DNA of 64,000 nucleotides from Oehlia diaphana. Lineage: Eukaryota; Glomeromycota; Glomeromycetes; Glomerales; Glomeraceae. The first letter of the stretch is position 1, and each line of letters starts with the position of its first letter. Both the position numbers and the translations under genes were made by a program. This document shows positions 5,374 through 51,587 of this stretch, one piece after another. The DNA is taken from positions 1-64,000 of the forward strand of contig QZLH01000192.1 of NCBI GenBank assembly GCA_003833135.1. The letters are read 5' to 3'. Below the pieces are notes generated by a model. That model was not told the DNA's origin and searched no databases. It saw only the letters and a program-made list of their open reading frames with translations.

Positions 5374-11220
<5,847 letters not shown>

Positions 11221-21934: not shown

Positions 21935-24502
21935 ATGAATATTACCGAGGATAAGTGGCCTATTCATCAATCATCTCAAGTCCCCCCTTCCCCTCACCAT
22001 CCACACCCCGATTTGTCTCCGCAAATGAACGGTATGCAAACTGAAAACTTTATTCAATCTTTCACATATGACGGTCAAGCACCTCAAGGTCAAATTCATC
22101 AACAAATGTAAGTTACGTTAATATCTAAACCTCTTAAAATAAAAAAAAATAAAACACTCGTAGTTTTGTGCCGCGCACGTTTTTCAGTTATCAGTTTCCA
22201 CATAGAACCCGCGTTTTATTTTGTGCTTCGTACAAACTGGTTTTGGTTATGCAAGTTGATGTTTCTTGTCGCCGCGTGTTACCTTACACACACTCGTTTA
22301 TTTTTTTCGAAACTGCGTCTCTTCTCTTGTTGAACATTTCTAACGTGTCCTTGACTTAATTTTTTGATATCATATATATACACTAAACTAATTTAATATT
22401 GATATCGTAGGCCTGTCCATGACGGTAACAACGGTGCAATGTTCATACCACCAAAACAAGAGATTGATACGACGCCAAATAGATCGCAAAGCCAATATCA
22501 AAAGTAATTATCATTTAAGATTTTAATAAGAGTATATATTAATATGTTGTAGTGTATTATGGTTTTAATCATTCATTCGATCAATATGATGTTGATTTGA
22601 TTTAGTTGATGGCAAAATTTACAATTTAATTTATCGTATGAATACATGCTATTACTAAACTTTTAATTTATTAATTGGTGATTGTTTAGTTTTGTTTCAA
22701 TGTCTGCTCCTGTGACTCCTACTACTCCCCGTCAGAATACTTCTCCAAATGGAACACCTATAACACCTGTTTCCGCACCACCAGAACGTAAAAATGATAA
22801 CAGACCAACGTTTACAACAAACTCATTTCACGCCACACCATTTCAACAACAAGCTATTAGGAAACGTAGAGACAACTCATTAGGGTTTCCTCCAGATGCT
22901 GGTCCATTCTTCTCCCAAACACAACAGCATTATAATCTGTATAATATGGATAGAACTAATAGGTGCGATAAATTTGCCAATAAGAAAAAGTCATTGATTT
23001 ATTTAAGTTCTTTACAAACTTTATTTTTCTAAATTTATTTTGAATATTCTGTTATTCGTGATTTATCAGTTATAAACTTCGTATCAATTCAAAAGTTGAC
23101 CGTGGATTCTTCTTGGCTGAAAATGATTGGACGTGTTATCGAAGAAATTATTTCCAAATTAGTAGTGCGTTTTCTTTAACAGGAACAAATCATCCTGTTA
23201 ATGAACCGGAAATACCGTGTTTGATAGAAGTAGAAGGTCAATTTCATACAGTTACTCAATTCACGTTAGGAATTTCTGCTCGTGTTTCCAACAGCGATAA
23301 AAAAATCGAGTTGGTGCAACATACTCCGAAACGCGACAAAGGACCACAGATGACTCCTACACCAAAACCTATTCGAGCGGGTGGTAACCTAAACCTTAGT
23401 TCTGTGGGAGCAAATACAAATATTGTTACTTTTGAACGTATTCAGTTTAAAACAGCTACTGCAAATAATGGTAAACGTCGTGCTGCTCAACAATATTATG
23501 TAGTTATGGTAGACTTATATGGCCATGTTGAAAATGGTGAACCTTATAGAGTCGCGACAGCAACATCAGCGCCCTTGGTAGTTCGTGGGCGTAGTCCCGG
23601 ACATTATGCTGATAGTCACGAGCGCTTTAATCCGATTGGAATGCATCCAGCATTTCCCAACGATAATCGTCAACATATTACTTTTCCTGGACCAAATGGT
23701 GCTCCCGGTATGATGCCACCTGATTTCAATGGTGCTCCTTTCCCGGGACCTTATGGCCAGTATCCTCCATTCCAAGGATATCCCCCTAACGGTCCAATGC
23801 GCAATGATGCTATATCCTTAATGATGTCAACCGGCGCGCCAAATCCTACAGCTTCTCACTATCCTCCACAACATCCTCCACATTATATGGTTCAAAATAT
23901 TCCAGAAACGGGAGAAACTCCCAATCCAGAAATGTATAATAATAATATGGACCCAAATAACTTAGAAGGTTCGTATTATTATTCAGGTGAAATTTTTTCG
24001 TTAATGAAATGCATTATTTTCTTATCTGATATTAAATTTATTTTATTTTTTAGTATCTACATCAGCGGCACCTACTACATTTACAAATTTTGAGGCACGA
24101 TCGTCAGCTTCAAATTCTCCTGCAGCGAGTGGTGCAAAACCATATATGAAAATCGAGATTCCGCAATCATCTCATCATACGAATCATCCACTCACATCTC
24201 CAGTTTTTCATTCTCAGGAGTATGTGGAAAGTTTTGGAATGTATAATAACAACAGTGCACATGCAACTACCACACATAGCGGAGGTTATCATTCAGATAA
24301 TGAACGCAATGGATCAAATAAACAGAAGGATGATACTGAACAAAATTCTGAGAATGCTCAACAAAACCAATCTAGTTCACAGGTAAATGGTGGTGATAAG
24401 AATATCCAAACCAACAATACAAGTATGAATGATAGAGATTCTAAGTCACCTGTATCAATGAATGGAGACAATACCGCAAAGTCCAATGCAAGATCAAAAT
24501 AA
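21935..24502 (+). CDS. NDT80/PhoG-type (p53-like Ig-fold) transcription factor
   Basis: Five exons: 21935-22107, 22411-22503, 22690-22962, 23070-23986, 24054-24502; 1905 nt, 634 residues. The N-terminal 180 residues are Pro/Gln/Thr-rich and disordered. Residues about 180-360 are the NDT80 DNA-binding domain: YKLRINSKVDRGFFLAENDW, WTCYRRNYFQISSAFSL, NIVTFERIQFKTATANNGKR, AQQYYVVMVDLYGHV, SAPLVVRGRSPGHYAD. Known family members regulate meiosis, sporulation, or nutrient and drug responses by binding GC-rich promoter elements. The C-terminal half is Pro/Gly/Met- then Ser/Asn/His-rich and probably an activation region. The start ATG is the first in frame. The target genes are unknown. Confidence 0.9.
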
Positions 24503-25749: not shown

Positions 25750-28700
25750 TTACAAAAGTTCAAAATTTTCAACTACTACATGTGATGACCTATTATTATT
25801 ATTATTAGTTTCGTTTTTATTAATTATGTTAATATTATCATCATTGCCAAGGATCTCTTGCTTGGATACCACTTCTTCCTCCTCATCATCTCCTTTAGTA
25901 CTTATAAAACAATCATCCTCATCTTCTTCATGTGTTACAATATCTTCTATATCTTCTAAATCATCATCATCCACATCATCAACTGTCTCAATAATTATAG
26001 ATGGCGATCTATCACTAAATTCACTAAGTGAAACATCACTCAAGGATTTTTTCCTTGGCCATAATTTTGGGATAGGACACGCGTTCAATATAGTGAACAA
26101 CGGAAATTGTGAATTTAACTAGAAGGGAAAAAAATTGTAAATATATGTTTTAAAAATTTTAATCGTAACTTAAAAATTTTTATATCTACTTTTTCAATTC
26201 GAATGCAAAAATTATCAAAATCTTGAGAGCTTTGACATAAGAATCCCAACAACATAGAAGGGTCCATTTCTGATATATCCATCATCCTAACAATAGTAGA
26301 GTGGTAGTCCTGTAAAACGAAAAAAAAAATATTTTAATATATTAGCAGCTTTTTATATATTTTTGATATTTACCTCAATCGGAAATTCCGAAGTTTTACT
26401 GAGATTTATAGCCGGCCGTACGAAGTGAGGATCAAGATACAGTAGATCATCATCTTGAATAGAAGGAATGAACCCGTGTAAATATAAAAATTACCAAAGT
26501 TCAATATTACAATATGATAGCTTACCCTGAACCGCTACAAAATATAATGATCTACCAGGTCTACCGCCAGCAATCCCCAAAAATTGAGGGAAAGTAAACA
26601 ATGCCTATTAATTTTTTTCAAAAATGAAAGATCGTTCATTAAACTTCCTTTTTCATCTATTTTCAACTCGTATTATGGTCATTAAAATTATACCTTTAAG
26701 TTATCTGAATAACTTGGATTAAGCTTATCTGTGCCCAACCTATTTGTAATAAATACATTAATAAGAATTTTTTTTTTTTGTTGCCAATTATAAATATTTA
26801 AACCAACCTCACAGAAAGTAAAATAAGAACCGGCTTCCATGGTTTCTGATCACTGATATCATGTTCTCCTGTTGCAGCATCGATTATTTCACTGCGGTAA
26901 ATAGTATTGTCTGTTGGTACATAAATGGCTAAAGGACATTCTTTATGAGTCAACGACAATCGCCTAACAAATAAAGAAAGTAACAATTAATTAATTAAAT
27001 CACTTTTAATCAATCACGCATAAAAGATATCAGAAACTCACTTCAATGCATGAGCAACAGTAGCCGGTCCAAACCAATCGCCAATTTTCTTATCCAATGA
27101 CATTCCTACACGGGCAATATTATGGATTGAATAATACTGTTCTGGCTCAGGCCCGTCCATAAACCAACGCAAAATCTAATAGAAATCAATCATATTTCTC
27201 GTTAAATTTAAAAGGATAATAATAGCCAAGTTAATTCCTCCTTTCCAAATACCTTTCTATATATTAATACATCAGATTCCGTTTGTAACTTATGTAACCG
27301 CCAATCTAAAATAATGATTTTTTTTTTTTTTAAAAAAAAAATAACTTTAATAATTTATACACAAATAATTTATTTAGTCATCAAACGACTATTTACCTCT
27401 TCCTAGCAATACCCATAAAAATCCTTGTGCTAATAAACTTTGACCTGTTCTATGCATACAGCCCCATCCTGTATCTGTAGTGTGAAATGCAGGTTCAATT
27501 GGAGGAAATTCTTTTCGATAGCAACAAAATATCCTTGACTGAAAATCCAATAAAAAATCCAACAGTTTTTGTTGATTGGAATTTAATTGTCCAAGTGAAT
27601 CAGGCCAATATAAACTTGTTGGAGTTGGGGGTAAAGACCTTACTGAACCTGTTTCCGTTGTTTTTTGAGGAACCCACATATCTGTTTGAATCGATATTAT
27701 TGATCGATCTTTTTGTGTATCATTAGAATAATTAGAAACTTCAATGTCCTTAGGAAAATTATTTTTGGGAATAGAAATTTCAGGATAATCCGATGAATTC
27801 GTCGATTCACGTGTCACAGTTTCAGCAGATATATTATCACCGGATAGACCTCCTCCATCTATGTCTTCAGAAGGTCTCGATATTGTATCACTACTGTTAC
27901 TTTCATTTTCATCTTCTGAACTAAAACATATATCTCCAAAACTTGATCGTTTTGAATCATCGTGTAGATACTTTGGATCATAATCTGTTTCTGTTTCCAT
28001 ATGTGGATAAAGTCGTGTTGAAGGTGAAGATTTAGGTTTCTCTCTACCAGAAAAGATGCTAAAAGTCCTTCTTCGAGGCTTTTTATCTTGAGAATTAGAT
28101 CCCAAAAATTCTTGATTATCATATGAAGAATATTTACGTAAAAGATTTGGACCCAGAGATAATCGTCTCGATTGATCAGAATTGTTCGTTTGTGACTCTA
28201 AAAATATCTCCTTTTGCAAATTGGATGATGATGATGATGATGATGATCTTATTTCGTAATTTAATGAATCAGATATATCTTGTTTTCTATTAGAGGACAA
28301 TGACCTTATTTTTTTACCAGGTAAAATACGACTATCATTTTTTGGAGGTGAAGATTCTGGAGTTTGTGATTTTTGATCTGGTGGTGGTGATCTACGAGAA
28401 AGTGAAAGCGATCTTAACCGTCTTATCACTCCAGGGGGTGAATTAGGTTTTGGTTTTGGTAATAAAAATAATCCTATTTGTTGTTGCTGCTGTTGTTGTT
28501 GTTGCTGAAAATCAATTTCATGAGGAGCTTGTGAAAAAGAACGCGACTTGCCCAATTTATGAGTACGGATAAAATCATCGCTATGATGACGTTCATGATT
28601 ACTCTGTATATCATTATAATCCTCATCTTCTTCCGATGAACCAAACATATAATTCAATAAGGATGATGCCCGTCCGCCTCGAGCATGTTCTCCCCTATCG

Positions 28701-28953
28701 GGTTTCGGGAGGTTAACCGTTCCACCGTCCTCTAAGTGGCACACACACATTTACAGAATTGACTTGATCCAATTATACATAAAGTCAAGAAATGGGAACA
28801 TTATATCAGGAGAACTTTAATTTTACCTGTAAATTTATATTCTACTCCAAGCATCCATATTGAACCCGTCGAATAATTATGTTTCACTCTAGATCTTTCA
28901 TCTGATTTCATGTATTGAATTAATCGCGAATTATAGAACCAATGACTTTTCAT
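25750..28953 (-). CDS. ATG4: ATG4 cysteine protease (Atg8-processing) with a large Ser-rich insert
   Basis: ATG4 trims Atg8/LC3 before lipidation and later delipidates it in autophagy. Exons: 28827-28953, 27397-28731, 27253-27305, 27042-27175, 26808-26963, 26694-26739, 26526-26604, 26374-26453, 26190-26309, 25750-26118; 2499 nt, 832 residues. Family motifs in order: [15 protein letters not shown]; catalytic Cys in [68 protein letters not shown]; catalytic Asp/His in [26 protein letters not shown]. Between the WMLG motif and the catalytic Cys are more than 330 residues rich in Ser, Arg and acidic residues, with a nine-Gln run; this region is only tens of residues long in typical ATG4. The C-terminal tail is strongly acidic and Asn-rich. 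A 5' exon at 29214-29512 may extend the N-terminus. Confidence 0.92.
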
Positions 28954-29569: not shown

Positions 29570-30620
29570 AATATAAAAAAAAAAAATATGGATTTTGAAA
29601 TTAGGTTAAAAAAAAAAAGTTTTCTTAAAGAAAAGAAAGAAAAAGGATATTAACAAACTTTTCATCATTTCATTTTTTTTTTTTCAAAAAAATTTTTTAT
29701 TTTATAATTATCATTATCAATTCTATAAATGAAAATTTGAGGGTGGCTTTGAAATAATAAAATTTTTTTATATGAGTAACATGTGATCAAATTAGTTAAT
29801 TTTATTAACCGAATCAATAAGTAAATCCAAATGCATAAAAAATTTTGCACAACGAAAGTGTGTTTTTGGAAATGTTTATATTAATTCGGAAATAATAAAT
29901 TTTTTAAATTTAATACCTATTCGATAGATCAAGTGTAAAAACGTATAAAAAAAAAACGGAATAAAGCCACAAAATATATAAAATTTGGGAGAATTTTATT
30001 TATTAACGCCCAATGACATAATAAGTATTATACAACGATCCTTATTATTGATGATATCATTAAAGGACGTTTTGTTTCCATAGTCCCTCAATGGGCTAAA
30101 TGGTTTCAAAGATTATAGGAGATTGAGATGAATATCATTCTTCTATCGTTTCAAATGACAAATTTGGATTACGGCTATTCCTAATAACAACACAAAGAAA
30201 ATCATGATTTTTAACAAAAAAGGATATTCCTCTTAAACGGCATACTGTGGTTTAGCGGATTGTTGGCACGTGACGAAGATTTCTCTATTTTCGTATCACA
30301 ATGTCTCAATTAATAGATAAAAACAAGTGCGATTAGATAGCGTAGCTGTCAAAATGCTGTCAAATTCCCGGGCCGAATATGTATGTATATATTATAAATC
30401 GAGGAACCGTTGTAGAAAAATGATGTATAATTGTATAAATATTCAATAAATATGTAAAACATATACACATATATACAAAAAATATATATATATATATTTA
30501 ATTGAATTGTTATTAACTCCTCATAAAACATTCAAAAAATTAATTAAATCATACAATAAAATTTGAATAAATTTCAAGATTTGATTTTTTTAAATGATTA
30601 GAATTTAAATTAACTTTCAA
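29570..30620. other. AT-rich spacer upstream of the 5S gene
   Basis: No gene supported; short minus-strand frames (for example 29665-29850) are low-complexity Ile/Leu/Tyr strings. Confidence 0.5.
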
Positions 30621-30737
30621 GTTACGGCCATACACAGTGAAAAGCACCGGAACCCGTCCGATCTCCGAAGTTAAGCCACTGATGGCCCAGTCAGTACTAC
30701 GGTTGGGGACAACGTGGGAATACTGGGTGCTGTAACT
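30621..30737 (+). rRNA. 5S ribosomal RNA
   Basis: A 117-nt segment has the 5S hallmarks: terminal stem GTTACGGC paired with GCTGTAAC, loop A and helix II/III GCACCGGAACCCGTCCGAT, internal promoter box A/C region AGTTAAGCCACTGATGGCCC, and GGGAATACTGGGTGCTGTAA at the 3' end. It is followed at once by a T run. It stands alone with no other rRNA nearby, as expected for fungi whose 5S genes are dispersed. Confidence 0.95.
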
Positions 30738-30739
30738 CC

Positions 30740-37287: not shown

Positions 37288-40014
37288 TTACGCAAAATAC
37301 ATAAAATTTAGTAATTCAGACTTTACAACAGCATAACTTGCACTTCCTATACCTTCTAAAGTATCTCGATCGCTCCAATTTTCACCACTTGTATGAAATC
37401 TTGCTCTACGACAAACTAAACGAGCATAATACACTGGTGGAACAATAGAAACTGCACGAGTGCATCGAGCAAAATTATAGCATAAATTATATGTTAATGT
37501 TTGAAGTGAGTCAGCATTGAATCCGTTTTCATCATATAACACGTGATAATGAGCCGGACGTGAAATCCCTTGTAAACTAGGGTGACTTAGAAGGTAAAAA
37601 TCAAATTCAAAAGGATGCACTACTGTTGTATCAACTACTGTACCAGAAGGACAGTTTCCTGTTTTATCGCCATCTCTTCTAGTGTCAATTGGGAAAAAGC
37701 GAGTGTGATGACGTTTTTGCACAACTACAAAAGTTATCGTTGGTTTATACTTCTCGTCAAGTGACTTGCATGCGGCTGAATATTTAGTAAGATAGTTTAT
37801 TAAGTAAAGCGTATTTGAAATATCAAATATAAAATGAATATATACCATTTATTGCCTTGATTACATTCTCTCGCACTATTAAAAATTGGGTTTCAGAAAT
37901 ACCATCTCGGTAGAATAAGATACGTTCTGGTTTTCTTCCACAAGTCTGATAAAATGCTTTTAATAATTCCTTAATAATTTCGGCTAGGTCATCAATAACT
38001 ACCTGTTTGCCGTGTTGAATACGAATTGCGGCAAAATATCGAAATGCTTTTGCATCTACCGAGGCAGTGACAGCAGCAATAGATGAGCGACCGGTATTCT
38101 GTTCCCCAGGAGCAGGGTGAATAACAGATGCGCCCATTATGATGGTTGGACGTTGTGTAATAAAGGGCATTTGGCTTGGATCAATGAATGAATTCATACC
38201 ACCAAGTTTAACATTTATTTTAAGACACACATTAGCACAATATTGCTTTTTTGCTGAAAACATATGCTTTCCTTGGATACACTGAGTAGCAACACCAATT
38301 ACTGTATCGCCAACGCGTTTAATTTCGGCATACAATGGTGCACCAGTATTAGGGAGAATACATAAAATTAATTGAGGTTTAGATTTAGCCGAACTTCCAG
38401 CCCTAACCCAAACTTGTTTTAAAGAATTTTCAATGCCGCCTTGAGGATTACAGTGTAGTATATGTAGATTTCTATTTGAAATATTCATTCCAGCAACTTG
38501 ACACGTGTTAAACAATTCTCTGATGAAATTTTGTATAGTGCCTATTGGATAATCTCTTTCACTTCCAAAAACAGCACATGCCCATGAACCAAGCGTTGCA
38601 CCAGTGACAACTTTTTTATTCTTTAAATTCCATAAACCATCTTTTGGAGTGAAAGTATCCTCTTTAGAGGCAGGATGGTAATATAATGTTGGAGTAGGTA
38701 ATACTCTTGCTTGAGTTATAACCATATCATTTGATATCCGAAACCCAAATTGATACATATACTCATTTTGTCGATAATTAAGAATTTCGATACCTTGGTT
38801 GATTGTATAATTACGTATTTGAGGTGGTTGACAAGTAAATTCAATCATATCCGCCATTTGTCTTTCATTAAATTTGCGCATATAACGTTGCCCCTAGTAA
38901 ATATAAAATACGGTTAAAAGAAAAAAATTTTTTCCTATACTCTGTAATTGAACATATGCTAGTTTTATATACCTCAACTACATTACATATTTCTATTGGT
39001 AAATAAGTTTCATTTCGTACAACAACGCAAGGAAGGAACGGATATTGTAATCTTCTGCCATACGTATTAAAAAAGTATGTAGCAATATCGATTTGTTGAC
39101 CATTAACTTCAAATGTAGTGCTAGAAGCTGAAGTATTAGTTAATTTAGAAATTCTAAATTGGCATCTTGAAAAACGAAGGATGACAAAAATTTTTAGATT
39201 CTTTAAACATTTTTCAAGCTTTGTACGATCTCTATCGTGAATCCTCCTAAGATCTTCAACGGTACTCTTACCGAGTATTCTTACAACTAATTGTATTAAG
39301 CTGCCTCTTTCATAAAAAGCAGTAGCATGTAAATCAATATTTATCATCATTTTCCTAGGTTTTGGTCTAATAGATTGAAAATATCCTTGCCAAACCTCAA
39401 TCCCTCCATCAAGGAGTTGTGATCCCTGATTAGTATAAAATATTCTCCCTACTTTTATATGGTCCTTTGATGGTTTATGATGAATCAATACATTAAGAGC
39501 CATAATGCCTAATTAACAGTAGAATAAATTTTAAGGAAATATTTTAACTAATTATAAAAGGAGAAATTATAGTGAATAAATTTTAACCTGTTAAAATATT
39601 TGATGATATAGAACAACCTCCGTTAAGAAATTTGTTGATCTCTCTCATATCAATTTCAGCGACTTTCCTAATTATAACTTTATAAACACGTGGAAGTATT
39701 ATACCCACATTATCCATATCATCCTCTGGTATAGTCACTTCTAAATTATGTGCATCACCAAAAGAAAACGGTCTGACAGTATAAACATTTCTACGACCAT
39801 CAAATACAGCTTTTACACCAGAAAAAGAATTTTCTGCTTCTTGAATAATTCTTCTATTCGAAGCTGGAGGGACTTTTGGTATAATTACAATGTCATAATG
39901 ATAAATTTTTGGAAAAGGAAGATCCGTTACTTCGAAATAATTTGTTCGAACTTTTATAGAATGACCAACACGACCTAAATCAGGACGTCTAACGAATTCT
40001 GCTATACTACCCAT
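37288..40014 (-). CDS. AGO: Argonaute copy C, slicer residues S-V-D-R
   Basis: Exons 39588-40014 (N domain), 38973-39508 (L1/PAZ), 37846-38893 (L2/MID/PIWI), 37288-37775 (PIWI C-terminus); 2499 nt, 832 residues, full family length. Motifs: [20 protein letters not shown] (PAZ end), [11 protein letters not shown], and the 5'-phosphate pocket [19 protein letters not shown] plus [10 protein letters not shown] with Tyr, Lys, Gln and both Lys present. The slicer tetrad is largely lost: first Asp is Ser (GASVIHP), Glu is Val (GKQVVI), third Asp is kept (YRDGIS) and the His is Arg (YYARLVC). It should bind guides but not cleave. It lies between pseudogene B and copy D, in the same orientation. Confidence 0.9.
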
Positions 40015-40090
40015 TAATTGAATGATAGAAGTGAGTTAAGATAAAAAATTCAATTTTTTAAAAAATATTAATCGATATTGATCAGAAATT

Positions 40091-40147
40091 CAAAGCCTTA
40101 TTAAGCCACGAACCGAACCTTGAGGCACAATGGATTATATAATAGTA
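40091..40147 (-). promoter_or_regulatory. Conserved upstream block of Argonaute copy C
   Basis: Read on the coding strand, a TATATAA-containing stretch is followed by TTGTGCCTCAAGGTTC, GTTCGTGGCTTAATAAGG and CTTTG, 77 bp before the ATG. Nearly the same block precedes copies D, E and F, while the surrounding spacer has diverged. Confidence 0.6.
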
Positions 40148-40285
40148 TTTTTTAAAAATAAAATTTTTTTATATGATGTCATCAATTATATTAGTAAGTT
40201 ATTCACAACTATAATTTTTTAATTTTTGGATAGGCTATTATTAATAAGTACTATAAATATAAATAATTTTGGTGCTTTATTAGCT

Positions 40286-43005
40286 TTATATAAAATACAT
40301 AGTCTTTAGTAATTCAGCTTTTACAGCAGCATAACTGACAACTCCCCCCGCGCCTTCTGAAGTATCTGGATCGCTCCAATTTTCACCACTTGCATGGAAT
40401 CTTGCTCTAGCACAAACTAAATGAGCATAATACACTGGCGGGACAATAAAAACTGCACGAGTGCATCGAGCAAAATTATAGCACAAATTGTATGATAATG
40501 TTTGAAGTGAGTCTGCATTGAATCCGTTTTCATCAAGTAAGACGTGATAATGAGTTGGACGTGAAGTCCCTTGCAAATTAGGGTGACTTTGAAGATAAAA
40601 GTCAAACTCAAAAGGATGTACTATTGTTGAATCAACTACTGTACCAGAAGGACAATTTCCTGTTCTATCGCCATCTCTCGCATTAGTTGGGAAAAAACGA
40701 GTGTGATGACGTTTTTGTACAACTACAAAAGTTATTGTTGGTTTATACTTCTCGTCAAGAGACTTACATGCTTCTAAATATTTATTGACAATTTAAGTGA
40801 AAAATTATTATAAAATGACTTAAAATAATAATAAATATATACCTTTTATTGCCCTGATTTCATCCTTTAATACTATAGAAAATTGACCTTCTGAAACGCC
40901 GTTTCGATAGAATAAAATACGTTCCGGTTTTCTTCCACAGGTCTGATAAAATGCTTTTAATAATTCTTTAACCATTTCTGCTAAATTACCAATAACTTCC
41001 TGTCTGCCAGTTTGAACACGAATTGAAGCAGCATATCGAGATGCTTTTGCGTCCATTGAAGCAGTCACAGCAGCAATGGATGGGGTATTCTGTTCCCCGG
41101 GAACAGGGTGAGTAACATCTGCACCCATTATGATGGTTGGACGTTGTGTAATGAAGGGCATTTGGCTTGGATTAATGAATGAATTCATACCACCAAGTTT
41201 GACATTTATTTTAAGACAAACATTAGCACAATACTGCTTTTTTGCTGAAAACATATGCTTTCCTTGGATACATTGAGTAGCAACACCAATTACTGTATCG
41301 CCAACGCGTTTAATTTCGGCATACAATGGTACACCAGTATTAGGGAGAATACATAAAATTAATTGAGGTTTAGATTTAGCCAAGTTTCCAGCCTTAACCC
41401 AAACTTGTCTCAAAGCAGTTTCATTTGGACCCTGAGGGTTACAATGTTGAATAGGTGGATTCTTATTTGGAATATTCATTCCAGTATCTTGACATGTGGT
41501 AATCAATTCTCTAATGAATTTTTGTATAGCACCCATTGGATAATCTCTTTCACTTCCAAAAACAGCACATGCCCATGAACCAAGCGTTGCACCAGTGGCA
41601 AATTTTTTATTCCTTAAATTCCATAAACCATCCTTTGGAATGAAAGTATCCTCTTTAGAAGCAGGATGATAATGTAATGTTGGAGCGGGCAATACCCTTG
41701 CTTGAATTATGGCCATTTCATTGGATACCCGGAAACCAAAGTGTTGCATATATTCATTTAGTCGATAATTAAGAACTTCGACACATTGGCTAATTTTATT
41801 AGCACGTGGTCGAGGTGGCTGACAAGTAAATTTAATCATATTTTCCGTTTGTCTTTCACTCAATTTGCGCATATAACGTTGCCCCTAACAAATAATACAC
41901 AAGTTACATTAAAAATTGATTATTTTCATATTTGATTAGTATATTAGTTTTACATACCTCAACTACATTACATACTTCCATTGGTAAATAAGTTTCCCTT
42001 CGGATGACAATGCAAGGAAGGAACGGATATTGTAGTCTTTTATTATACATATTAAAAAAGTATGTAGCGATATCAATTTGTTGACCATTAACTTCAAATT
42101 TAGTACTAGAAGCTGGAGTATTAGTTAATTTAGAAATTCTAAATCGACGTCTTGAAGCAACTTCATCACGATGAGTGACGAAAATTTTTAGATTCTTTAA
42201 ACATTTTTCAAGCTTTGTACGATCTCTATCGTGAATCCTTCTAAGATCATCAACGGACCTCTTATTGAGTATTTTTACAACTAATTGTACTAAACTATCA
42301 CTTTCGTAAAAAGAAGTAGCATGTAAATCAACATTTATCATTAGTTTCCTAGGTGTTGGTCTAATAGATTGAAAATATCCTTGCCAAACCCCTACCCCTC
42401 CACTAAGAGATTGTGAACCTTGTTTAGTGTAAAATACTCTCCCTAATTTTATATGCTCCTTTGATGGTTTGTTATGAATCAATATATTAAGAACCATAAT
42501 GCCTAATTAACATTAAAATAAATTTTAAGTAAAGGAAATATTGCAACTAACATTGTAGAAAGAAAATTATAATGAATAAATTTAAACCTGTTAAAATATT
42601 TGATGATATAGACCCACGTCCGTTAAGAAATCTGTTGATCTCTTCCATATTAATTACAGCGACCCTTTTAATCATTATTTTAAAAGTACGTGGAGTTCTT
42701 CCACCTGCATTATCCTCTGGCATAGTCACATCTAATGCTTGTGCATCACCAAAAGGAAACGGTCTGATGGTATAAACATTTCTACGACCATCAAATACAG
42801 CTCTTATACCGAGAAAAGAATTTTCTGCTACTTGAAAAATTTTTCTATTCAAAGTTGGAGGAGCTTCTGGTATAATTACAATGTCGTAATGGTAAATATT
42901 TGAGGAAGGAAAAGCTGTTACTTCGAAATAGTTTGTTCTAAGTCTTATAGGACGTCCTACACGTCCAAAATCAGGACGTTTAACGAATTCTGTTATACTA
43001 GCCAT
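40286..43005 (-). CDS. AGO: Argonaute copy D, slicer residues D-E-N-H
   Basis: Exons 42588-43005, 41958-42502, 40843-41884, 40286-40773; 2493 nt, 830 residues. The splice joints match copies C, E and F ([34 protein letters not shown]). The guide pocket is complete ([29 protein letters not shown]). Tetrad: Asp (GADVTHP), Glu (GRQEVI), Asn instead of Asp (YRNGVS, codon AAC), His (YYAHLVC). A single G-to-A change on the coding strand would explain the Asp-to-Asn replacement. The protein is otherwise the most canonical of the array with copy F, and shares long identical stretches with F in PIWI. Confidence 0.9.
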
Positions 43006-43094
43006 GATTTGGACAATTGAAAAATGAGCTAAGGTATCAAAAAAATTAGATCAATCGTATGTTAAATACAAAAAGTTCCAACAGATAAGAAATT

Positions 43095-43154
43095 GCAAAG
43101 CCTTTTTAAGCCACAAACCAAACCTTGAGGCACAATGGATTATATAATAGTACT
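43095..43154 (-). promoter_or_regulatory. Conserved upstream block of Argonaute copy D
   Basis: Same order as in copy C: TATATAAT, CATTGTGCCTCAAGGTTTG, GTTTGTGGCTTAAAAAGG, CTTTGC, ending 90 bp before the ATG. Confidence 0.6.
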
Positions 43155-43203
43155 TTATAAAATCTTCTAACAAATCGGTAAATATATGTTTGTCAAATTA
43201 TAA

Positions 43204-43233
43204 TATTTATTTATTTATTTATTTATTTTATTT
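43204..43233. repeat. (TTTA)n microsatellite
   Basis: About seven TTTA units in the spacer between Argonaute copies D and E. Confidence 0.7.
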
Positions 43234-43321
43234 TATTCCTATGTCTAATTATAATAGTAAGATATTCACAACTATGATTTTTATTTTTGTAGATAGATTA
43301 TAATTTGGTGATTTATTAGCT

Positions 43322-46036
43322 TTACATAAAATACATAACTTTTAGTAATTCAGCTTTTACAGCAGAATAACTGGCAACTCCCCCCGCACCTTCTGAAGTA
43401 TCTGGATCGCTCCAATTTTCACCACTTGCATGAAATCTTGCTCTAGCACAAACTAAATGAGCATAATACACTGGTGGAACAATAGAAACTGCACGAGTGC
43501 ATCGAGCAAAAACATAACACAAATTGTATGTTAATGTTTGAAGTGAGTCTGCATTGAATCCGTTTTCATCATATAACACGTGATAATGAGCCGGACGGGA
43601 AGTCCCTTGCAAACTAGGGTGACTTAGAAGATAAAAGTCAAATTCAAAAGGATGTACTATTGTTGAATCAACTACTGTACCAGAAGGACAATTTCCTATT
43701 CTATCGCCATCTCTCGCATTAATTGGGAAAAAACGAGTGTGATGACGTTTTTGCACAACAACAAAAGTTATTGTTGGGTTATACTTCTCGTCAAGAGACC
43801 TACATGCTTCTAAATATTTATTAACAATTTAAGTGAAATATTATTATAATGACTTAAGAATAATAAATATATACCTTTTATTGCCTTGATTTCATTCTTT
43901 AATACTATATAAAATTGACCTTCTGAAACGCCGTTTCGATAGAATAAAATACGTTCCGGTTTTCTTCCACAGGTCATATAAAATGTTTTTAATAATTCTT
44001 TAACCATTTCTGCTAAATCACTAATAACTTCCTGTCTACCAGTTTGAACACGAATTGAAGCAGCATATCGAGATGCTTTTGCGTCCATTGAAGCGGCCAC
44101 AGCAGCAATAGATGGACGACCCGTATTTTCTGCGCCTGGAGCAGGATGAGTAACGCTAGCACCCATAAGGATAGTTGGGCGCTGTGTGATGAAAGGTACT
44201 TGAGTTGGGTCAATAAATGAATTCATCCCGCCAAGTTTAACGTTCATTTTTAGACAAACGTTGGCACAATATAGTTTCTTTGCTGCAAACATGATATACT
44301 TTCCCTGAACACATTGAGAAGCGACGCCAATTACGGTATCGCTAACACGCTTAATTTCGGCATATAACGGTACACCAGTGTTGGGGAGAATACAAAGAAT
44401 CAGTTGAGGTTTTAATTTAGCCAAGTTTCCAGCCTTAACCCAAACTTGTCTCAAAGAAGTTTCAATTGGACCCTGAGGGTTACAATGTTGAATAGGTGGA
44501 TTCTTATTTGGAATATTCATTCCAGTGTCTTGACATGTGGTAACCAATTCTCTAATGAATTTTTGTATAGCGCTCATAGGATAATCTCTTTCATTTCCAA
44601 AAACAGCGCATGCCCATGAACTAAGTGTTGCACCAGTGGCAACTTTCTTATCCCTCAAATTCCATAAACCATTTCTTGGGGTGAAAGCACTATCTCTTGA
44701 GGTAGGATGATACTGTAGTTTTGGAGCAGGCAATATTCTTGCTTGAGTTATGGCCATCTCATTAGACACCCGAAAATCAAACTGTTGCATATACTGATTT
44801 TGTCGGTAATTAAGAATTTGGATACCTTGGTTAATTTGACTAGCACGTGATTGAGGTGGTTGACAAGTAAATCTAATCATATTTGCCGTTTGTCTTTCAT
44901 TCAATTTGCGCATATAACGTTGTCCCTAACAAATACACAATGCGTTAAAAAATAATTTTATTCCATATTGATTAGTATGTTGGTTTTACATGCATACCTC
45001 AACTACGTTACATACTTCCATTGGTAAATAAGTTCCACTTCGAATAACAATGCAAGGAAAGAATGGATATAATAATTGTATATTATATGTTCTTTGGAAG
45101 TATGAAGCAACATCAGTTTGATTACCATTATCATCAAATATTGTATTACTAGCCGAAGTATTAGTTACTTTAAAAATTCTAAATCGGCGGTTTAAAGCAT
45201 TTTCATCATGAGTAGCATAAATTTTTAAATTTTTTAAACATTTTTCAAGATTTGTACGGTCACTATCGTGAATCCTCCTAAGATCATCAACGGACCTCTT
45301 ATTGAGTATTTTTACAACTAATTGTACTAAACTATCACTTTCATAAAAAGCAGTAGCATGTAAATCAATATTTATCATCATTTTTTTAGGAGTTGGTCTA
45401 ATAGATTGAAAATATCCTTGCAAAGCCTTTACTCCTCCACTAAGAGGTCGTGAATCTTGATTAGTATAAAATATTCTCCCTACACTATTAAATGTCGTTG
45501 ATGGAACATGACGGATCAATACATTAAGAGCCATAATGCCTAATTAGCATCATAATTAAATTTAATTAAGTAAGGTGATATTACAAAAATGATGTTATAA
45601 TAAATAAATATTAACCTGTTAAAATATTTGGAGATATAGAACCATGTCCGCTAAGAAATCTATGGATCTCTTCCATATGAATTTCATTGACTTTCTTAAT
45701 TCTTATTCTAAAACTACGTAAAGGTCTTCTACCCACATTAATCGTATTATCCTCTGGTAAGGTCACATCTAATGTATGTACATCCAACGGTCTGATAGTA
45801 TAAACATTTCTACGACCATCAAATACAGCTCTTATATCATGAAAAGAATTTTCAGCTATTTGAAAAATTTTTCTATTCAAAGTTGTAGGAACTTCTGGTG
45901 AAATATCAATATCGTAATGATGAATATTGGAGTCAGGAAGATTTGTTATTTCGAAATAGTTTGTTCTAATTCTTATAGGACGACCTAAACGACCTAAACC
46001 AGGACGTTTGACGAATTCAGTTATATTAGCCATCAT
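43322..46036 (-). CDS. AGO: Argonaute copy E, slicer residues S-E-N-H
   Basis: Exons 45616-46036, 44998-45539, 43875-44925, 43322-43809; 2502 nt, 833 residues. It starts [13 protein letters not shown]. The pocket residues are kept ([29 protein letters not shown]). Tetrad: Ser (GASVTHP), Glu (GRQEVI), Asn (YRNGVS), His (YYAHLVC). The N-domain lacks a few residues present in C, D and F near the RPLD segment (the PFPFGDAQ equivalent is shortened). The PAZ exon resembles pseudogene B ([19 protein letters not shown]), hinting at gene conversion or shared descent of B and E in this exon. Confidence 0.9.
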
Positions 46037-46131
46037 TTAGACGATCAGAAGAATGAGTTATGATATTAAAAAAATTCAATCAATTGGTATGTTTGTTGTT
46101 TAAATATTAAAATATCAATGATAAGAAAATT

Positions 46132-46188
46132 GCAAAGCCTTATTAAGCCACGAACCAAACCCTGAGGCACAATGAGTTATATAATGGC
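46132..46188 (-). promoter_or_regulatory. Conserved upstream block of Argonaute copy E
   Basis: Contains TATATAACTCATTGTGCC, TCAGGGTTTGGTTCGTGG and CTTAATAAGGCTTTGC on the coding strand, ending 96 bp before the ATG. Confidence 0.6.
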
Positions 46189-46322
46189 ATTTTTTTTAAA
46201 AGATTTCCACAAATTGTTTAAACTAACATTTTTTATATGTTGTCAAATTGTATTTAAAACTACATCTATAATTATAAGACTTTTGTACTGCAAATATAAA
46301 TAATTTTAGTGCTTTATTAGCT

Positions 46323-49012
46323 TTATATAAAATACATAGTTTTTAGTAATTCGGATTTTACAACACCATAACTGGCACTTCCTACACCTTCTGGAGTATC
46401 TGGATTGCTCCAATTTTCACCACTTGCATAAAATCTTGCTCTACGACAAACTAAACTAGCATAATGCACTGGTGGAACAATAGAACCTGCACGAGTGCAT
46501 CGAGCAAAATTATAGCACAAATTGTATGTTAATGATTGAAGTGAGTCAGCATTGAATCCGTTTTCATCGAGTAACACGTGATAATGCATCGGACGTGAAA
46601 TCCCTTGTAAACTAGAGTGACTTTGAAGATAAAAGTCAAACTCAAAAGGATGTACTATTGTTGAATCAACTACTGTACCAGAAGGACAATTTCCTGATCT
46701 ATCTCCATCTATTCCAGTATCAATTGGAAAAAAACGAGTGTGATGACGTTTTTGCACAACTACAAAAGTTATTGTTGGTTTATATCTCCCGTCAAGTGAC
46801 ATGCATGCGTCTAAATGTTTGTTGACAATTTAAGTGAAATATTATTATAAAATGACCTAAAATAATAATAAATATATACCTTTTATTGCCCTGATTTCAT
46901 CCTTTAATACTATAGAAAATTGACCTTCTGAAACGCCGTCTCGATAGAATAAAATACGTTCTGGTTTTCTTCCACAGGTCTGATAAAATGTTTTTAATAA
47001 TTCTTTAACCATTTCTGCTAAATCACCAATAACTTCCTGTCTGCCAGTTTGAACACGAATTGAAGCAGCATATCGAGATGCTTTTGCGTCCATTGAAGCA
47101 GTCACAGCAGCAATGGATGGGGTATTCTGTTCCCCGGGAACAGGGTGAGTAACATCTGCACCCATTATGATGGTTGGACGTTGTGTAATGAAGGGAATTT
47201 GGCTTGGATCAATGAATGAATTCTCGCCACCAAGTTTAACATTTATTTTAAGACAAACATTGGCGCAATATATTCTTATTGCGCGCACTATGTGTCTGCT
47301 CTGGATACATTGCGTAGCAACCCCAATTAACGTATCGCAAACGCGTTTAATTTCGGCATACAATACACCACCAATATTGGGAAGAATACATAAAATTAAT
47401 TGAGGTTTAGATTTAGCCGAGTTTCCAGCTCTAACCCAAACTTGTCTTAAAGAATTTTCAATACCGCCTTGAGGATTACAGTGTAATATAGGTGGATTTC
47501 TATTTGGAATATTCATTCCAGCATCTTGACACGTGTTAACCAATTCTCTAATGAAATTTTGTATAGTGCCTATTGGATAATCTCTTTCGCTTCCAAAAAC
47601 AGCACATGCCCATGAACCAAGTGTTGCACCAATGGCAACTTTCTTATCCCTTAAATTCCATAAACCATCTTTTGGAATGAAAGTATCCTCTTTAGAAGCG
47701 GGATGGTAATGTAATGTTGGAGCAGGTAATACCCTTGCTTGAGTTATTGTCATTTCAGTAGATACCCGAAAATCAAATTGGTGCATATACTCATTTTGTC
47801 GATAATCAAGAATTTGGAGACCTTGGTTAATTTTATCAACACGTGATGAAGGTGGTTGACGAGTAAATTTAATCATCTCCGCCATTTGTCTTTTGTTCAA
47901 TTTGCGCATATAACGTTGTCCCTAATAATACACAAGCTATATTAAAAAATAATTTTATTCCATATTGATTAGTATACTAGTTTTACATACCCCCACTACA
48001 TTACATATTTCCATTGGTAAATAAATTTCTTTTCGTACAATAACGCAAGGAAGGAACGGATATTGTAGACTTCTACCATAAGTATTATTAAAGTAAGTAA
48101 CAACATCGGTGCGTTGACCATTAACTTCAAACATAGTATTGGAAGCTGGAGTATTAGTTAATTTAGTAATTTTAAATCGGCGGCGTTTCGAAGAACTTTC
48201 ATAAATCTTTAGGTACTTTAAACATTTTTCAAGCTTTACACGATCTCTTTCTTGAATCTCTCTAAGATCTTCAACGGACCTCTTATTGAGTATTTTTACA
48301 AATAATTGTACTAAATTATCACTTTCATAAAAAGCAGTAGCATGTAAATCAACATTTATCATCAATTTCCTAGGTGTTGGTCTAATAGATTGAAAATATC
48401 CTTGCCAAACCTCTACCCCTCCACTAAGAGATTGTGAACCTTGTTTAGTGTAAAATACTCTCCCTACTTTTATATGATCCCTTGATGGTTTATGATGAAG
48501 CAATACATTAAGAACCATAATGCCTATTTAACATTAAAACAAATTTTAAGTAAAGGAAATATTTCAATTAATTGTGAAAAGAAATTATTTTAACCTGTTA
48601 AAATATTTGATGAAATAGAACTACGTCCGTCAAGAAATCTATAGACCTCTTCCATATTAATTTCATTGACTTTCTTAATCTTTATTTTAAAAATACGTGG
48701 AGTTCTTCTACCCGTATCATCCTCTGGTATAGTCACATCTAATGATTGTGCATCACCAAAAGGAAACGGTCTGATAGTATAAACATTTCTACGACCATCA
48801 AATATAGCTCTTATACCATAAAAAGAATTTTCGGCTATTTGAAAAATTTTTCTATTCAAAGTTGGAGGAACTTCTGGTGAAATTACAATGTCGTAATGAT
48901 GAATATTGGAGTCAGGAAAATTTGTTATTTCGAAATAGTTTGTTCTAATTCTTATAGGACGACCTAAACGACCATAACCAGGACGTTTGACGAATTCAGT
49001 TATATTAAACAT
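46323..49012 (-). CDS. AGO: Argonaute copy F, slicer residues D-E-D-S
   Basis: Exons 48595-49012, 47991-48523, 46880-47921, 46323-46810; 2481 nt, 826 residues. This is the only copy with all three acidic slicer residues: GADVTHP, GRQEVI, YRDGVS. The metal-coordinating His is Ser here (VHYASLVC against YYAHLVC in D and E). The guide pocket is conserved ([29 protein letters not shown]), although the segment between them ([12 protein letters not shown]) has diverged. The PAZ/L2 joint uses GTGGGG|GTATGT. A DED-only Argonaute is expected to be cleavage-impaired, but some DEDX enzymes retain activity in other families, so activity is uncertain. Confidence 0.9.
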
Positions 49013-49278: not shown

Positions 49279-51587
49279 AAATACATAACCTGAGATTTAC
49301 CGCAGCATAATTGACTACTGGGTCGCTTCAATTTTTAACATTTAAGTGGAGTTTTGCTCTACAACAAACTAAATGAGTATAAGATACTGGTAGAAAAATA
49401 AAAACAGCACGAGTGTATCGAGCAAAGAAATATCACAAATTGTATGTTAATATTTGAAGTGAGTGAACTCATTTCATCAAATAATACGTGATAATGTGTT
49501 GGACGTGAAATCCCTGGGTGACTTAGAAGACAAAAGTCAAGTTCAAAGGATGCACTACTATTGTTTCACCTACTGTACCAGGTCAGTTTTCTATTTTATC
49601 AGAATTTTCTTTATTTATTGGGAAAAAACGAGAGTAATGGCATTTTTGCACAACTACAAAAGCTCATAGTAAATGATCAGTAATTTACATCAAGCGAATG
49701 ACACGCAGCTAAATATTTATTTAAAAATGTTAATAGTGTTTGAAGTATCAATTATTTACAAAATATAAATATACCTTTCATTGCTTTTACCTCATTATTT
49801 ATTTAGCACTTGAGAGAATTGGCTTGAGCTCGATAGAACAAAATACGATTTTTCTAAGTCTCGGAGAATTTTTTAATAGTTCCTTAGTCATTTCGGTCAA
49901 ATCAACCACTAATAGTATTCTGACTGGCAGTTTTTTTTTTTTAAAAAAAAAAAAAATATCTAGATTCTTTTGCACATATATATATATATGTATATATCGT
50001 AAAGCAACAATAGATAGACGAACTAGTAACCCATTATTATAGTTGAACGTTGTGTAATTAGGATATTTGATTTGAATTTGAATTCGTATCACAAAGTTTA
50101 ACATTTAGTTTAAGACAAGCATTAGGGCTTATACATGCGCCTGCTCTGAATACATTGATAGCGATACCAATTACTGTATCGCTTACGCGTTTAATTTCGA
50201 CATACAATGGTACACCAGTATTTAGGAAGAATACATAAAATTGATTGAGGCTGTGCTCTAGCCGTATTTCCTAGTCTTAAGCCAAACTTGCTTTGAAGAA
50301 TTTACAATGTCACTTTGAGGATTACAGTGTTGTATATGGATTCCTATTTAGAATATTCATTTCAGAATCTAGAACATATTGTAACTAATTTTCTAATAGC
50401 TACAATCAGAAAATCAATTTATTTCCAAAATCAGCATATGACAACCAAGGGTGCACCATTGGCAGCTTTTTATTCTTTAAATTCCATGAACCATTCTTTG
50501 AAATGAAAGTGTCCTCTTTAGAAATGTGTCATTCCACGAGAAATTCGCAAACCAATTATTCGTTTTGTTGATAAATAAGAACATTGATACCTTGTCTAAT
50601 TTTATAAGCACATATTATTGATGATTGTCGAGTAAATTCCATCATTCAGCCGCATATGATGTTGTCCCTGTGAACTGTTAGCTTAAGTGAGTAAAGATTA
50701 GTTTTACACACCTAACTACATTACATACTTCCATTGGTAAATGAATGACAATGCAAAGCAAAGAAGAAACGGATATTGTAATGTATGTTATATGTCCTTT
50801 GAAAGTATGAAGTAACATTGGTATGATCATTAGTATTAAAAGCTGAAGTATTAGTTAATATAAAAATTCTAAATTGGCGGCATAAATTTTCAACGTGTGG
50901 TATAAAAAAAAATTCTTAAGCTTTAGGTGATCTGTATCTAAAATCTTCAATGGACCTTTTATTTAGTAATTTTAAGACTATTTGTATTTAAAATAATTAA
51001 ACTACCAATATTTATCATTCCTCTAATAGGTATTTACCTAATAGATTGAGAATAACCTTGCCAAGCCTCTACTTCCTCATTGAGAGGTCATGAATCCTGA
51101 TTAGTACAAAATACTCTCCCTGCCTTTTAAGCGTCGTTGATGGCATATACAATAAGAGCCTAATTAACTTTAAAATTAAATTTTATGTAAAGGAGAATAT
51201 TGCAAAAGGAAAGCTATAATGAGTATAAATCTAATATGTCAAAATTTTTGGTGATAATAGAATAATTTTCGTCAAGGAACCTATTGATCAATTCAGCAAC
51301 TTCTTAATTCTAATTGTCATCTAGAGTTACATATAAAGTAGCCGCAACACCAAAAGGAAACTTTTCAACATTAAAAATATTTCTAAGACTATCAAATACA
51401 GGCCATACATCTCCAAAATAATCATCTGCTGCATAATATCTTTACTACTCAAAACTGGAGTAATTACAGTGTCGTAATGATAAATATTTGAGGAAGAAAA
51501 AGATATTATTCAAATAGTTCTAATTTTTATAAAACAACCTATACTACCTAATCCAGGACGTCTAATGAAACCTGTTACACTAATCAT
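49279..51587 (-). pseudogene. Argonaute copy G, decayed
   Basis: All four exon equivalents can be traced in order (N domain about 51240-51587, L1/PAZ about 50720-51160, MID/PIWI about 49790-50660, PIWI C-terminus about 49279-49690), broken throughout by frameshifts, stops and deletions. A short remnant of the upstream block (CTTAATGGAGGC and GTGGCTTA on the coding strand) remains at about 51673-51705. It marks the upstream edge of the array. Confidence 0.85.

Follow-up and report, generated by a model that had tools for sequence, protein, structure and literature searches.

Four tandem Argonaute genes of Oehlia diaphana with incomplete slicer tetrads and a retained guide pocket

The Argonaute array

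The stretch of DNA analysed here (the window) comprises positions 1-64000 of contig QZLH01000192.1 of the fungus Oehlia diaphana, from assembly GCA_003833135.1, which is AT-rich and consists of 108.8 Mb in 1672 contigs. Four consecutive Argonaute genes with open reading frames, referred to as F, E, D, and C, lie on its minus strand from position 49012, the start codon of F, to position 37288, the stop codon of C. Each gene consists of four exons separated by GT-AG introns of 65-85 bp. Two broken Argonaute copies belong to the same array.

49286..51587, minus strand: extra Argonaute copy upstream of F, more degraded than B; four pieces match E at 31-48% identity
46323..49012, minus strand: copy F; exons 49012-48595, 48523-47991, 47921-46880, 46810-46323; 826 aa
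43322..46033, minus strand: copy E; exons 46033-45616, 45539-44998, 44925-43875, 43809-43322; 832 aa
40286..43005, minus strand: copy D; exons 43005-42588, 42502-41958, 41884-40843, 40773-40286; 830 aa
37288..40014, minus strand: copy C; exons 40014-39588, 39508-38973, 38893-37846, 37775-37288; 832 aa
33600..36600 (approximate extent), minus strand: pseudogene copy B, downstream of C; frames broken

The open copies have the domain make-up of complete Argonautes. All six Pfam models (N, L1, PAZ, L2, MID, and PIWI) were found in C, in D, in the Rhizophagus diaphanus protein P0007, which is 100% identical to E, and in P0003, the R. irregularis orthologue of F. Copy F itself was aligned to human AGO3 over residues 9-797. 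The array belongs to the AGO clade, as its proteins share 58-92% identity with fungal AGOs in the upper part of the homologue list and are nested among fungal AGOs whose slicer tetrad reads D-E-D-H (DEDH).

Catalytic residues in the array and across species

The MID domain of an Argonaute grips the 5' phosphate of the guide, and the PIWI domain cuts when its tetrad is complete. The register of the tetrad was set by aligning F with human AGO3 and all four copies with 120 homologues, and the codons were verified directly on the genome sequence.

Codons at 47156, 47036, 46940, 46457, minus strand: tetrad of copy F, D-E-D-S (GAT-GAA-GAC-AGT)
Codons at 44157, 44031, 43935, 43459, minus strand: tetrad of copy E, S-E-N-H (AGC-GAA-AAC-CAT)
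Codons at 41119, 40999, 40903, 40423, minus strand: tetrad of copy D, D-E-N-H (GAT-GAA-AAC-CAT)
Codons at 38128, 38002, 37906, 37422, minus strand: tetrad of copy C, S-V-D-R (TCT-GTA-GAT-CGT)

None of the four open copies has an intact D-E-D-H/D tetrad, and all four retain the Y-K-Q-K-K of the 5'-phosphate pocket in MID, positions which we take to be Y529, K533, Q545, K566, and K570 in AGO2 numbering. In other words, C-F pair a pseudo-catalytic tetrad with an intact guide pocket, as in Argonautes of the human AGO1 type. The original prediction, made from the letters of the window, had named these four tetrads, the MID residues kept in every open copy, and an S-E-N-R tetrad in pseudogene B. The tetrads were recovered exactly as named and the MID pocket residues were present in all four copies; S, E, N, and R of B were also found, though in three different frames whose pieces were read singly and not joined. 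B also occurs in R. irregularis, where it makes up the decayed latter half of P0001.

It had further been claimed that each copy misses a different part of the tetrad. The tetrads do differ, but the lesions overlap, with Ser at position 1 in both C and E and Asn at position 3 in both D and E. This overlap bears on the proposal that the copies are complementary subunits forming one shared active site. That the lost positions differ by copy speaks for the proposal, but the lesions are not cleanly complementary and every copy is a full six-domain Argonaute. No Argonaute is known in which two chains together form a single active site. The proposal is scarcely credible and was rejected. The position-1 Ser is encoded by TCT in C and by AGC in E; because no single silent change connects these codon families, more than one origin of this Ser is hinted at. 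Copy C also carries Ile in place of a conserved Thr two residues past the first catalytic position. In AtAGO10, a site adjoining that Thr anchors target t10 (PMC10772731).

Could the residues be errors of assembly or sequencing? Near-identical tandem tracts are prone to collapse, and no second copy of D or F is in view among the R. diaphanus entries listed. Against this, both E and C are found again in a second R. diaphanus assembly. The C protein is 99% identical to P0014, whose gene model differs, and P0014 shares one contig of that assembly with P0007, though the reads behind the two assemblies may not be independent. Judged by this recurrence, the residues of C and E are not an error private to GCA_003833135.1. 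Furthermore, the lesions of C and F recur in R. irregularis, Ser at position 1 is two or more base changes away from Asp, and the 64-kb window contains no runs of N. Error, which the original prediction had listed as a way of overturning its claim, was rejected for C and E and is very improbable for the array as a whole.

The lack of an intact tetrad extends to all readable members of the array clade. Homologues were tallied among the best 120 of 314, using cluster representatives alone, and five degenerate or partly unreadable rows were left out of the outgroup (P0013, SENH; P0053, SANR; P0063, KEDH; P0077; and P0090). Outside the array clade, the tetrad is intact (D-E/D-D-H/D) in 96 of 99 readable rows, the exceptions being DEDQ, DEDN, and EEDD; counting in the readable set-aside rows P0013, P0053, and P0063, the figure is 96 of 102. 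Within the array clade it is 0 of 17 readable rows, which represent 15 distinct sequences since E and P0007 are one gene, as are C and P0014; P0032, whose position 4 is unreadable, is not among the 17. The tetrad is changed more than chance would give. All four of its columns differ in one copy or more, compared to 25 of 212 other columns with 94% or higher conservation in the outgroup (Fisher p 2.7e-4), or 9 of 95 within PIWI (p 1.9e-4), p values that are indicative as the sites have a common history.

The S-V-D-R of C recurs in R. irregularis P0001, P0006, P0011, and P0023 (94-95% identity; possibly one gene across strains or annotations) and in R. diaphanus P0014. Likewise, the D-E-D-S of F is kept in P0003 (94.3%). 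The R. irregularis orthologues of E read S-E-D-H (P0005) and S-E-D-Y (P0008), and that of D reads S-E-D-H (P0002, 92.8%). Three R. clarus relatives are also degenerate (S-E-S-H, S-E-S-Y, and D-E-S-H), and their consecutive locus tags (RclHR1_07120003, _07120004, and _07120005) suggest that this set is tandem too. In a tree built without the tetrad columns, the array clade has support of 100/100, and P0004, a DEDH Argonaute whose cluster hides 17 sequences, is its sister (99/98). Because the array clade is degenerate across species and its sister is DEDH, the loss of intact tetrads in this lineage either predates the split of these species or happened in parallel. On a 26-row tree, with Funneliformis and G. 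cerebriforme rows counted in, tetrad positions 1-4 require a minimum of 6, 2, 6, and 5 state changes.

Selection, gene conversion, and the fate of the copies

The ratio of nonsynonymous to synonymous substitution rates (dN/dS) was estimated for the six pairs among C-F with the codon model GY94 (F3x4). For the whole gene it is 0.28-0.39, and a value of 1, at or near which the original prediction would have been in doubt, was rejected in all six pairs (p <=2e-12). The ratio is lowest in MID (0.09-0.29), followed by PIWI (0.18-0.36) and PAZ (0.30-0.50); 1 was rejected in six of six pairs for each of these domains, in PAZ at the 0.05 level. The order of the domains was reproduced by simple counting. 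Selection on C-F is purifying. The prediction had held that selection keeps binding and not cutting. The low ratio of MID agrees with the first part, but PIWI as a whole is constrained too, so that what selection keeps is the whole guide- and target-binding lobe, while the four catalytic positions are free to vary.

Orthologues were compared by protein identity in place of coding-sequence dN/dS. Array copies share 91-95% identity with their orthologues, and eight DEDH pairs share 94-99% by a more lenient measure; P0002, P0005, and P0011 against the window (wrong copy) and P0087-L029 (no orthologue pair) were excluded. By these protein identities, the array evolves somewhat faster than the DEDH pairs or about alike, but not freely. 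A special function for the fast-changing N lobe was considered and rejected, as the ratio of N-terminal to C-terminal divergence of C-F from P0004 (1.6-3.5) largely overlaps with that of 11 other DEDH or D-D-D-H pairs (1.4-2.9), and only E exceeds their range.

Tetrad residues have been shuffled between copies by gene conversion. The clearest tract joins D and F.

40989..41156, minus strand: conversion tract D/F; 46 consecutive polymorphic sites identical over 168 bp

This tract covers tetrad positions 1 and 2 and has a global permutation p of 0.0005. Sliding identity between D and F is 0.97-0.99 in the tract versus 0.73-0.96 in the remaining coding part. Further identical runs join C with D (21 sites, permutation p 0.0025) and E with F (17 sites, p 0.03), and a D/E run of 16 sites is borderline (p 0.054). 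The start of PIWI is F-like in D but E-like, with Ser, in the R. irregularis orthologue P0002. Position 1 differs between these two orthologues because D acquired an F-like PIWI start, and the loss proper to D is that at position 3. In segment trees, D lies near F, and the PIWI of P0002 falls next to P0004 and the E lineage. The forks are weak, and tree conflict was rejected as proof of conversion; the permutation test bears the claim.

What might these copies do? The reading we favour, with some reserve, is that C-F are retained guide-loading, non-cleaving Argonautes. Tandem duplication of a DEDH Argonaute would have produced the array, with the catalytic sister P0004 surviving in R. irregularis. 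Catalytic residues would then have been lost repeatedly, with conversion moving tetrad segments among the copies. C-F would take up small RNAs by way of an ordinary MID pocket, bind targets, and cleave poorly or not at all. They would act by occupying guides or targets, recruiting partners, or competing for guides, and not by slicing. Support for this reading, which the original prediction had also put forward, comes from the MID pocket, the dN/dS values, and the lesions shared by the C and F orthologues; the open frames on which the prediction had leaned would alone be a weak argument. Both guide loading and loss of slicing in C-F are inferred from established Argonaute biochemistry.

The expected loss of slicing varies by copy. 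It appears clear for C and E, very likely for D, whose third Asp is lost, and least certain for F because only its fourth residue is changed (His to Ser). It is unlikely, then, but conceivable that some copies, F foremost, slice weakly or conditionally. F retains D, E, and D, and position 4 is the most variable tetrad position in the outgroup (0.835 H). Human AGO1 with its His restored gains only weak activity, the tetrad being one control among several (PMC9262622). However, the fourth residue in active Argonautes is D, H, or K, not S (PMC6299218), each of C, D, and E lacks a metal-binding Asp, and a mutation of the third Asp was used to obtain inactive AtAGO10 complexes (PMC10772731).

Several observations weigh against retained, non-cleaving Argonautes. 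The N domain has a dN/dS of 0.42-0.86, and 1 was not rejected there in four of six pairs; moreover, a dN/dS between paralogues averages their history before and after the catalytic losses. A PAZ histidine (~residue 250) that is conserved in the outgroup is replaced by Leu in C and missing in F, though kept in the F orthologue P0003, and guide 3'-end binding of C and F may be altered by this loss. When P0004, the DEDH sister, is the only reference, no clear excess of changes falls on the tetrad (hypergeometric p over PIWI: C 0.042, D 0.40, E 0.059, and F 0.55), and enrichment by this measure was dropped as mostly non-significant. The lesions of D and E differ between the orthologues of two species, and the array holds two pseudogene copies, so copies do die. 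In R. irregularis, only one AGO-like gene is reported to exceed 100 transcripts per million, and the others show minimal or no expression (PMC11075540); evidence of expression was also lacking for five AGO genes that have no homologue in R. clarus (PMC6399891). Other reports from this species are that 27 of 40 AGO-like genes were called expressed (PMC6399891) and that peptides of ten AGO proteins were detected in spores (PMC8647823). The gene identifiers in these four reports are not matched to the array.

Many of these points would suit birth-and-death decay, in which dispensable duplicates drift to pseudogenes, catalysis is lost first, and both B and the copy upstream of F stand further along the same course. 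The two pseudogenes in the same array, the lesions of D and E, the low expression of most R. irregularis AGO genes, and other degenerate loci with stops in the genome, such as L032, are all in line with such decay. It is less easily reconciled with a dN/dS well below 1 in MID and PIWI, with lesions of C and F that are the same in two species while the frames are still open, and with the retention of most conserved columns outside the tetrad (39 of 848 such cells changed in C-F, versus 7 of 16 tetrad cells). Decay thus remains a tentative alternative, with a modest but real chance of being the true account.

Other Argonaute loci, known systems, and neighbouring genes

The original prediction had called for the tetrad to be mapped across the other Argonautes of the genome. 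A genome search gave 27 further genes or fragments with PIWI, of which 18 have intact tetrads (including L022, which carries stops), five are degenerate (L012, L024, L027, L031, and L032), and four are not fully readable (L013, L023, L030, and L033). The intact tetrads at these loci indicate that predicted slicers are therefore present beside the array. At C922:18500-39500 (L016 and L017), four more Argonaute genes lie within ~20 kb, all of them D-E-D-H.

L012 belongs to a far-diverged family (~31% identity to D). Its 1620-aa open frame at L012:846-5708 (C118) holds an Argonaute with S, N, and L at tetrad positions 1, 3, and 4; position 2 depends on the alignment and reads K, or E by a one-residue shift. 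By eye, the same frame also has a kinase-tail-like stretch, and it gives a weak match to MACPF that falls below the Pfam cut-off; the annotation of R. clarus P0126 lists kinase, MACPF, and Argonaute domains. Among the R. irregularis relatives of L012, P0121 and P0124 read S-E-N-R, and P0122, P0123, and P0125 are DEDH. Likewise, Funneliformis P0053 reads S-A-N-R, and the closely related P0019 is DEDH. Such cases suggest that tetrads were lost repeatedly along a similar path in the array, in P0053, and in the L012 family, the last compared outside a joint tree.

An orthologue of P0004 is represented by L035 (C347:51507-52580), where exons 1-2 match at 95% and 98% identity and are followed by a homopolymer and then an unrelated open reading frame. 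The genome search gave no match to its MID-PIWI half on contig C347. The break may be a truncation of the gene or an assembly junction.

Tandem arrays of tetrad-decayed AGOs are already known from Phytophthora, where clade 7 arrays of AGO3/4/5/8/9 carry lesions that include D-D-N-R, S-D-_-R, and N-D-G-R; whether these copies have other functions or are pseudogenes is discussed there (PMC6284064). The present array is of this type, being tandem and orthologous across species, with varied lesions and a MID better kept than the PIWI tetrad. Unlike the oomycete arrays, some members of which lack domains, it is fungal, four-exon, and full-length, and its frames, dN/dS, and gene conversion were examined. 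Human AGO1 is DEDR and slicer-deficient, and AGO4 is named catalytically inactive (PMC9262622). Like AGO1, the copies are AGO-clade proteins with an intact guide-binding site and a pseudo-catalytic tetrad, and C shares its R at position 4. AGO1 is one of several dispersed vertebrate paralogues with known translational repression, whereas the array is also hit at positions 1-3.

A third comparison is with the WAGO clade of Caenorhabditis elegans. WAGOs are not known to keep the tetrad. The genome analysed here holds at least 13 RNA-dependent RNA polymerase (RdRP) loci by our own count, and, as in the worm, an expanded Argonaute set stands alongside an RdRP expansion. The array differs from WAGOs in its AGO-clade placement by close fungal DEDH sisters, in trees that held no WAGO rows. 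Given the RdRP loci, it is possible that array copies hold RdRP-made guides with a 5' triphosphate. Relatively few C. elegans AGOs retain the tetrad (PMC10101689), and in a published tree R. irregularis is without a homologue from group 3 (PMC6399891).

Fungi typically have 1-4 Argonautes and arbuscular mycorrhizal (AM) fungi far more. R. irregularis has 40 AGO-like genes, 25 of them with all core domains, and MULE-linked spread has been proposed (PMC6399891, PMC8647823); this expansion concerns the same gene family as the array. AGO-loaded small RNAs of this species have their length peak at 24 nt and carry U or A at the 5' end (PMC8647823). In PMC6399891 the words 'tetrad', 'DEDD', and 'DEDH' are absent and 'catalytic' occurs once; 'catalytic' and 'tetrad' are absent from PMC8647823. 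No report of tetrad loss in AM fungi was found in the accessible open-licence literature. New here are the orthologous retention, the per-domain dN/dS, the conversion through the active site, and the parallel cases in the genome and in Funneliformis.

A broader and rather doubtful idea is that AM fungi have evolved, more than once, a second tier of Argonautes that works independently of slicing, with duplicated or tandem copies dropping the same catalytic residues (S at position 1, N at 3, and R at 4) while keeping guide binding. Taken as one proposal, it would cover the Rhizophagus array, Funneliformis P0053, and the far-diverged Ascomycota-type Argonaute (P0121, P0124, and L012); it would parallel the worm WAGOs through RdRP expansion; and conversion with active copies would keep the binding lobe young and the cutting site off.

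If a conserved block of Argonautes binds guides without cutting, AGO gene counts overstate slicing capacity. Members of the block would then be candidates for repressing targets by guide, storing guides, or competing with slicers, and this in a fungus that depends on its plant host and exchanges small RNAs with it. The idea can be tested directly, since two cultivable species carry the orthologous lesions and the DEDH sister can serve as a control.

The window also contains other genes. On the minus strand, an open reading frame at 7744-9435 shows signs of an intein (a Hom_end-associated Hint domain and a homing endonuclease), and the adjoining one at 6257-6931 has EF-Tu domain 2 and IF-2 domains; the region 6257-9435 looks as if it were a translation factor gene holding an intein. 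A gene for an NDT80/PhoG-like DNA-binding protein lies at 23113-24093 on the plus strand. Yeast Ndt80 is a meiotic regulator, and such a gene is of interest in a fungus long held to be asexual. A partial gene for a C54 peptidase (Atg4-like) lies at 27389-28750 on the minus strand, and a single 5S rRNA gene at 30620-30738 on the plus strand.

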